Assembly (NCBI RefSeq): GCF_001719125.1
Contig: NZ_CP017006.1
Span: 682,001 to 746,000 of the forward strand
DNA from: Sulfolobus sp. A20
GTDB taxonomy: Archaea > Thermoproteota > Thermoprotei_A > Sulfolobales > Sulfolobaceae
Direction of reading: 5' to 3'
Length of the DNA: 64,000 nt
This document shows positions 30,686 to 32,286 of the stretch, piece by piece. Position 1 is the stretch's first letter; every line of letters starts with the position of its first letter. A program made the position numbers and the translations under genes. The notes below the pieces were generated by a model. It saw only the letters and a list, made by a program, of their open reading frames with translations, searched no databases and was not told the DNA's origin.

Positions 30686-31099
30686 TCAATCTATGTAAAT
30701 TGAAAAGTAGTTATTTTTATAAAACGTCATTACCACCTTATCCAGAACTGATTCTCTGCCTAGTATCATTTCGGGGATTATAGGCAAGTTAATGCTATTC
30801 ATATCAAACGAAACTACAGAAATATTAATAACGTTTTCTAAGATCTTGATTTTAGCCTTATATCTTTCCCTCCATAGGCCGTTAATAGAGACCACATCGA
30901 GAAAGGAACTAGAATGGAAACAATTCTTAATCCTTTCTTCGCTGAGTAAAGAATATCTACTACCAGAATCTATTAGTCCCTTTATTCTCATCCAAGAGTT
31001 GTATTTAGGACACTCTACTTCAACGTCTATAAGGGGTATTTTATTTCCCATAATGTCGGAAAAACTGAAAACCTTTAAATTAGGCTTTATATTTGACAT
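30686..31099 (-). CDS. Retropepsin-like aspartic protease domain protein (137 aa)
   Basis: A small protein with the clan AA hallmarks. The segment GLIDSGSRYSLLSEE puts the candidate catalytic D44-S45-G46 in a beta-hairpin context. The later hydrophobic MILGRESVLDKVVMTF matches the ILGRDFL motif of retropepsins. Only one DSG is present, as expected for a homodimeric retropepsin. Its ATG (31097-31099) lies inside the preceding 57-residue DUF5678 frame, overlapping by 20 bases in another frame. This gene is the last of a three-gene minus-strand operon. The substrate is unknown. Proteolytic activity is plausible from the motif but not proven. Confidence 0.65.
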   Translation of the reverse strand: MSNIKPNLKVFSFSDIMGNKIPLIDVEVECPKYNSWMRIKGLIDSGSRYSLLSEERIKNCFHSSSFLDVVSINGLWRERYKAKIKILENVINISVVSFDMNSINLPIIPEMILGRESVLDKVVMTFYKNNYFSIYID

Positions 31100-31253
31100 A
31101 CAATATTGAGAAATCCTTTCTTTTATAACCTTTTCTTTTCATTTCCTCTATTAATTTCCCCTTATCCTCTGAAAAGCCTAAGATCTCATCACCCCTAATA
31201 GCAACATACTTACCAACAAGCTTAACATCATTAATTACCAGCATATCTATCAT
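31080..31253 (-). CDS. DUF5678-like small protein (57 aa)
   Basis: A 57-codon frame starting ATG at 31253 and ending TAA at 31080. It contains LVGKYVAIRGDEILGF and KLIEEMKRKGY, as in DUF5678 proteins. Its start overlaps the stop of the 162-residue gene as ATGA. It is nearly identical over about 40 residues to the N-terminus of that upstream paralogue (DNA about 31135-31236 against 31620-31721), so it arose by tandem duplication. It is either a separate subunit or the front half of a frameshifted DUF5678-retropepsin fusion. Confidence 0.6.
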   Translation of the reverse strand: MIDMLVINDVKLVGKYVAIRGDEILGFSEDKGKLIEEMKRKGYKRKDFSILYVKYKA

Positions 31254-31738
31254 ATTGTAATTTCAACGAATTCACTATAAAAACATACGTTTTTGAAAAG
31301 CGTATAACTAATTATTAACTCGGGCAATATTGGGAACTCGTATCCACTTAGATCTACTATATCAGCTTCTACTTCTCTCTCTACTACACCTATAGATAGA
31401 TGTATTTTATTTTTCAAATAACATTCCTCAGCTAAAGATCTATCTACAAAGTTTTTGAAAAAAGGAGAGAGTAATGCTTTAACATTATACATTTCATTGT
31501 CACGATTACATAAAATTTTTACATCAATAATCGGCACTTTGTTACCGTAAAAGTTTATGTACTCAAATCTAATCCTTGCTGGAATATAAACTATTGAATA
31601 ACTTAAAATATCTACCCCTTTTCTTTTCATTTCCTCTATTAATTTCCCCTTATCCTCTGAAAAGCCTAAGATCTCATCACCCCTAATAGCAACATACTTA
31701 CCAACAAGCTTAACATCATTAATTGATAACTCTTCCAT
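31250..31738 (-). CDS. DUF5678 domain fused to a degenerate retropepsin-like domain (162 aa)
   Basis: The N-terminal DUF5678 segment (LVGKYVAIRGDEILGF, about residues 10-25) is followed by a domain collinear with the 137-residue neighbour (NFYGNKVPIIDVKIL against DIMGNKIPLIDVEVE). The catalytic position reads ALLSPFF instead of LIDSGS, and the second LGRE motif is replaced by ISYTLF, so this copy should be inactive. The start at 31738 is preferred to 31804. A TATA-like ATTTATATT at 31807-31815 would place transcription start downstream of 31804. Function is unknown. A pair of an active and an inactive paralogue could form a heterodimer. Confidence 0.6.
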   Translation of the reverse strand: MEELSINDVKLVGKYVAIRGDEILGFSEDKGKLIEEMKRKGVDILSYSIVYIPARIRFEYINFYGNKVPIIDVKILCNRDNEMYNVKALLSPFFKNFVDRSLAEECYLKNKIHLSIGVVEREVEADIVDLSGYEFPILPELIISYTLFKNVCFYSEFVEITI

Positions 31739-31806
31739 ATTTACTTTAATCGCATAGAGAAAAAATAATCTTATTGCTATCTGAAATAAGCTAAGAAAAT
31801 TCATTA

Positions 31807-31815: not shown

Positions 31816-31995
31816 TTCCCTCTGTGATTATCTACGAAACATAGCTTAGAAAGAATGGATACTAATTCCTTACCGTTAAATTCTCAAAACAGTTAATGGT
31901 ACAACTACTCATATAAAATTCATACAGTTGATCCGAATTTCTCATCATCCCAGAAGAATCTAACCTAATTTTACGACTTAGGGACTTGACTATTA

Positions 31996-32152
31996 TCTGA
32001 CTTCCTCCCTTTAGAGGCTAACCCCATCGATTCGAAGTTGCATCTCTAATGTGAGGAGCAGCCGAGAGGGTCAGATAAACCTTTCCATTTACATAATAGA
32101 TGTGTTTTTACTTTAAAGCTTCTTTGTCATCACTTTGAAAGGTCGAGCTTTT
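31996..32152 (-). repeat. Large TnpB-end-like repeat, copy A
   Basis: About 155 bases on the minus strand, alignable to copy B (43475-43618, plus). It starts with an AAAGCTCGACCTTTC hairpin, then GTGATGACAAAG, an AT-rich spacer, TCTGACCCTCTCGGC, CATTAGAGATGCAA, CGAATCGATGGGG, and CCTCTAAAGGGAGGAAGTCA at the end. Two hairpin-like ends bracket a conserved core. It is probably the 3' end plus right end of an IS605-like tnpB, or a small non-autonomous element. Confidence 0.65.
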
Positions 32153-32252: not shown

Positions 32253-32286
32253 ATCTGACTTCCTCCCCGCCCTAAAGGGCAAAGCT
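32253..32286 (-). repeat. TnpB-end-like hairpin repeat, copy 7
   Basis: On the minus strand: AGCTTTGCCCTTTAGGGCGG, then GGAGGAAGTCAGA. This is the best preserved tail of the family (GGGGAGGAAGTCAG). A stem GCCCTTTAGGGC is perfect. Confidence 0.65.

Follow-up and report, generated by a model that had tools for sequence, protein, structure and literature searches.

The window, which is the whole stretch of 64,000 nucleotides analysed from Sulfolobus sp. A20, contains a cassette of three minus-strand genes in head-to-tail arrangement (31738-30686). The first open frame (31250..31738, minus strand) codes for a fusion protein of 162 residues. It has an N-terminal DUF5678 domain (about residues 5-53) and a C-terminal domain which, according to its fold model, is retropepsin-like but catalytically dead. 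An alternative start at 31804 is possible for this gene (184 residues), but the relative from another species of the genus Sulfolobus (genome G103, see below) begins at the shorter start. The second open frame (31080..31253, minus strand) codes for a stand-alone DUF5678 protein of 57 residues. The third (30686..31099, minus strand) codes for a protein of 137 residues that has a retropepsin-like fold model and carries the motifs DSG (with D44) and LGRE (113-116). The fusion gene overlaps the stand-alone DUF5678 gene by 4 nt (ATGA, 31250-31253), which in turn overlaps the protease-like gene by 20 nt (31080-31099). Both junctions had been described in an earlier note on this DNA, as had the DUF5678 domain. 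In a profile search, both copies score above the Pfam cut-off for PF18929 (26.6 and 30.2 bits versus 23.2). The Pfam search found no DNA-binding domain in the three window proteins, while fusions to VapB, ribbon-helix-helix-like and winged helix (wHTH) domains exist in relatives.

By sequence alone, the 137-residue protein is only weakly assigned as a retropepsin. It matches the RVP family with an E value of 0.034 (14.9 bits, under the Pfam cut-off of 20.7) and clan_AA_DTGF with an E value of 0.02 (15.2 bits, under the NCBIfam cut-off of 57.35). A sequence search of the PDB gave no convincing match. The predicted fold, however, is that of a retropepsin. The best PDB matches of the AF2 model (pLDDT 72.5, pTM 0.68) are Ddi1 and APRc from Rickettsia (5c9b), with a Foldseek E value of 1e-4 and a probability of 1.0; the structural match has a Z score of 10.8 and 2.3 A across 104 residues. 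The alignments behind the structure models were thin (3 and 5 rows); a scan of contigs with the single protein contributed no relatives to them, and a scan with an alignment contributed one. Thus, the clan AA assignment made in the earlier note holds at the level of the fold, while the profile scores stay below the cut-offs. The motif positions are DSG at 44-46 and, for the pattern hydrophobic-hydrophobic-Gly, ILG at 112-114. D44, G46 and L113-G114-R115 are invariant across the protease relatives. By fold and motifs, this is the active-looking copy and a predicted protease.

The C-terminal half of the fusion lacks these features. DSG is replaced by SPF, so that the catalytic D(T/S)G motif is absent; LGRE is replaced, and a hairpin is deleted. 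The proposal of one active-looking and one dead copy is thus sustained. The same fold is nevertheless predicted, with weaker matches (best Foldseek E value 5e-3; Z 9.0, 2.1 A across 85 residues) from a model that is not fully independent, as its alignment included live copies. Core strands and the C-terminal strand are retained. The dead counterpart from G103 likewise has no catalytic Asp, and both dead halves lack the segment following the Asp as well as LGRE. The deleted segment is the hairpin 66-86 in the model of the live protease; given how far it lies from the catalytic Asp, it would correspond to the flap of retroviral proteases. The dead domains cluster apart from all live ones (support 100) on long branches, with 32% identity between the two but only 23-28% to live domains.

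Retropepsins act as dimers, to which each subunit gives one Asp. Defective HIV protease monomers poison the dimer, and a dead subunit would do likewise to a retropepsin dimer. For the dead copy, devoid of Asp and flap, the only conceivable roles would be to poison a live subunit or to bring in an extra DUF5678 domain. The earlier note had suggested a regulated heterodimer of the live and dead copies; in such a model, the pseudoprotease would be the main regulatory element. The dimeric nature of the family and the strands kept in the dead-half model are in line with this proposal, but live and dead domains within one genome are only 23-24% identical. Moreover, the pseudoprotease was found in this cassette only, in two species, whereas dozens of relatives consist of DUF5678 and a live protease, so that a heterodimer would not be the general mechanism. 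We consider it improbable as the main mode of regulation.

The two DUF5678 regions share a direct repeat. The earlier note had correctly reported a tandem repeat, which it gave as about 100 nearly identical bases; sequence comparison extends it to an exact 108 bp. Copy 1 (31617..31724, minus strand) lies in the DUF5678 part of the fusion and copy 2 (31129..31236, minus strand) in the stand-alone DUF5678 gene, with a spacing of 488 and zero differences. The repeat spans the DUF5678 core in both genes and stops where the two proteins diverge. G103 has the identical gene order of dead-half fusion, DUF5678 and live protease (locus L031, 854-1908). There, the two DUF5678 copies are 100% identical across 126 bp, at offsets matching those in A20. 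Because the A20 repeat is exact over 108 nt and the cassette of the second species has its own exact repeat, chance can be dismissed. Between the two species, DUF5678 differs at 37 of 102 aligned bases (36%), with a dS of about 1.7. Immediately past the repeat, the tails remain gene-specific: both fusions continue with YIP, both stand-alone proteins with YVK. A further DUF5678 copy elsewhere in the G103 genome (L058) is not homogenised and is 34% identical to the window copy.

The dead halves are sisters with common losses, and therefore the module was duplicated, and one copy died, before the species split. The earlier note had taken the identical bases as the trace of a tandem duplication of the module. 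This had to be abandoned: a recent module duplication is ruled out because G103 has the same duplicated architecture and the same dead features, and the identity stems from later homogenisation in each lineage. The DUF5678 copies have thus evolved in concert through local gene conversion in two instances, each lineage having homogenised its own pair. Recombination between the repeats would remove 488 bp and leave an ordinary two-gene pair.

The genomic surroundings differ between the two species. The cassette is flanked by S-layer and tRNA genes in A20, and by genes for an electron-transfer flavoprotein and formate-dehydrogenase-like proteins and a CRISPR-like repeat array in G103 (names by inspection). 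As these neighbours are unrelated, there has been either a move of the cassette or a rearrangement around it. The CRISPR-like array of G103 (L062, 727-2065) is located ~5 kb from the cassette and shows up as repeating peptides in translation. The window cassette is found in a gene-poor stretch. Upstream of it, a short repeat (ATCTGACTTCCTCCC) occurs twice (31995-32009 and 32253-32267). At the DNA level, the locus resembles plasmids only by a match of 73 bp with 78% identity (32022-32094) to a part of NC_021914 that is annotated as TnpB. Taken together, the repeats and this match look like the remnant of an IS200/IS605-type element. An integrated plasmid beside the tRNA genes was considered and rejected, as no repeated tRNA 3' end flanks the cassette, the only repetition being a T-arm stretch common to tRNAs. 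A viral origin was also rejected, with no relative among phage records or viral contigs. PADLOC and PHROGs gave no meaningful match.

A gene-poor stretch with a TnpB-annotated match would also suit a non-adaptive explanation, by which the dead fusion would be a duplicate in decay, while the repeat would result passively from recombination and carry no functional weight. Tandem copies convert easily, and broken relatives exist in two other genomes (G101 and G105, see below). However, the dead domains of both species are open across 330 nt even though half of their bases differ, and among 20,000 composition shuffles of each, zero frames were open. The same fused architecture is also found in two species at different loci. 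We regard passive decay as very improbable.

The two-gene arrangement is common among relatives. Protease relatives were found in 15 of the 31 Sulfolobaceae genomes examined, with a patchy distribution and a maximum of four loci per genome. All 19 open relatives from Sulfolobaceae are preceded by a small DUF5678-type gene, which overlaps the protease gene or ends within a few nt of it. Pfam does not detect one subgroup of these small proteins, but a relative of this subgroup on plasmid pNOB8 has an E value of 1.5e-4. From order- and phylum-wide searches, 65 archaeal DUF5678 loci outside Sulfolobaceae were examined. A retropepsin-like gene or its remains adjoin 49 of these, 46 being downstream on the same strand and 3 convergent; the neighbour profile was built from motif-positive neighbours, and as 34 of these loci went into its training, only the other 15 are independent of it. 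In the three convergent cases (L009, L018 and L105), the genes are only a few bases apart in L009 and L018. Since retropepsins are otherwise rare (roughly 70 PF13650 matches in 98 genomes), such adjacency far exceeds what chance would produce. The recurrent association, which the earlier note had mentioned for other prokaryotes, is thus corroborated by the neighbour survey. With the retropepsin fold and this association, neither of the two outcomes that would have spoken against the proposal of the earlier note was obtained. The remaining 16 loci have no protease nearby, which we count against the reading as a module; several of them are near contig ends. The converse does not apply outside Sulfolobaceae, where a large number of archaeal retropepsins from other subfamilies lack an adjoining DUF5678; this, too, counts against the reading as a module. 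Some genomes of the order (G002, G034, G036 and G080) show an expansion to 4 to 9 retropepsin-like genes; most of these genes have no DUF5678, and some contain internal stops.

Antitoxin-type fusions and carriage by conjugative plasmids, neither of which figured in the earlier note, provide a better functional lead. DUF5678 is the C-terminal part behind a VAPB_antitox domain in L083 and L099, where this domain scores above cut-off. At nine loci (L020, L023, L094, L096, L097 and L100-L103), it follows ribbon-helix-helix-like N-termini, for which Pfam support is weak where present (FitA-like with E 0.0055 or ParG with E 8e-4). In L104, it is joined to a MarR/AbiEi-like wHTH domain (below cut-off). 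A protease gene or its remains adjoin each of these DNA-binding fusions. The pair is also carried by conjugative plasmids of S. islandicus (pHVE14, pSOG1 and others). A conserved ORF of 56 residues (MDKDSYLKGFEDCLDL...) follows the plasmid-type pair (L066, 3477-3647; L060, 3969-4139; also L004, L032 and L041). In G105 (L044/L046), the protease is broken while the upstream DUF5678 gene is intact, and a broken protease copy also occurs in G101 (L043). DNA-binding fusions, carriage by plasmids and decay of the effector with retention of its partner thus argue for an antitoxin-like role of DUF5678. PIN-domain genes (VapC-like, by inspection) are found several hundred bases upstream of DUF5678 at seven loci (L010, L011, L013, L017, L022, L071 and L091), suggesting islands of such modules. 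One plasmid case counts against the reading as a module: in pNOB8 (L146, 1225-2065), a DUF5678-like gene is followed by a gene for a GNAT acetyltransferase, with no protease. This DUF5678-like gene is nearly the same as one that precedes a protease in G104, so that the downstream partner may be exchangeable. As a case in which the partner persists and the effector does not, it also stands beside G105 among the observations that point to an antitoxin-like role.

The main rival to a protease with its inhibitor has DUF5678 as the substrate, as a partner resembling a pro-segment or as an adaptor that presents substrates, in a non-toxic regulatory module that might serve, e.g., plasmid replication or transfer. 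In particular, the protease could cut a DUF5678-linked DNA-binding repressor and thereby switch genes on. The varied DNA-binding domains attached to DUF5678 beside protease genes would fit such derepression by cleavage equally, and in pHVE14 and pSOG1 the pair is located among genes for CopG and MarR-type regulators. Most stand-alone DUF5678 proteins, however, have only about 55-75 residues and neither a DNA-binding nor any other second domain; the lack of a DNA-binding domain in most of them counts against the toxin-antitoxin reading as well. The retention of a dead protease fused to DUF5678 in two species is also harder to explain in this way. We consider a substrate or adaptor role possible but rather unlikely.

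Some comparisons with known systems can be made. In predicted fold, motifs (DSG and LGRE) and single-domain size, the live protein resembles retropepsin-like clan AA peptidases (RVP domain of Ddi1, Rickettsia APRc, prokaryotic proteins of the COG3577/COG5550 type). It differs from them by scores below the Pfam and NCBIfam cut-offs, by the overlapping DUF5678 gene and by a dead paralogue fused to DUF5678. The DUF5678 copies belong to an uncharacterised family and are in the usual place just before a retropepsin-like gene, but unlike typical members they are duplicated and homogenised at the DNA level, and one is fused to a pseudoprotease. With type II toxin-antitoxin systems (VapBC- and RHH-type), the pair has in common a small upstream partner that overlaps a downstream effector gene, a patchy and plasmid-borne distribution with several copies per genome, decayed effectors and a partner that is elsewhere fused to VapB- or RHH-like domains. 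In contrast to these systems, the role of the putative toxin would fall to an aspartic protease, and the window partner lacks a DNA-binding domain. In the Sulfolobus conjugative plasmids pHVE14, pARN3, pARN4, pSOG1 and pSOG2, the DUF5678 gene overlaps a protease gene of the same family (about 32% identity to the window protein). The plasmid version consists of the two genes and the 56-residue ORF among plasmid regulators and has no dead copy. Only the DUF5678 domain and the protease clan are already known by name. Searches of the literature outside subscription journals found no description of the pairing, of fusions to antitoxin-type domains, of the fused pseudoprotease or of homogenised repeats; they returned one irrelevant match for DUF5678 and none for aspartic-protease toxins in archaea.

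We favour, with a probability of roughly one half, a mobile module that resembles toxin-antitoxin systems, consisting of a protease and its inhibitor, with the DUF5678-pseudoprotease as an extra inhibitor; for this reading, we infer binding, inhibition, toxicity, dimerisation and the substrate. The ancestral mobile module would have had two genes, the small DUF5678 protein being the cognate antitoxin-like regulator or inhibitor of a dimeric retropepsin encoded by the overlapping gene that follows. This pair would have been duplicated in the ancestor of the cassette, with the first protease losing Asp, flap and LGRE and becoming fused to its own DUF5678. The DUF5678-pseudoprotease, being translated first, would restrain the live protease either via DUF5678 or by formation of an inactive heterodimer. 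Gene conversion would keep the DUF5678 stretches identical, as would be the case if the two have to recognise one and the same protease. Mere proximity of the tandem copies, without selection, could also cause such conversion. Going further, pairs of DUF5678 and retropepsin might represent a widespread archaeal class of toxin-antitoxin systems in which the toxin is an aspartic protease of the retrovirus type, with the fusion serving in this genus as a second, dominant-negative antidote that is kept in step with the antitoxin by gene conversion. We propose this broader view only tentatively.

To our knowledge, prokaryotic relatives of retroviral proteases are numerous in archaea, and almost none has a known role. 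A conserved small partner, which elsewhere carries antitoxin DNA-binding domains and which is found on conjugative plasmids, provides a testable hypothesis for many archaeal retropepsins. The cassette itself combines a natural pseudoprotease with clear concerted evolution that is confined to the partner domain, and this points at an interaction worth measuring.
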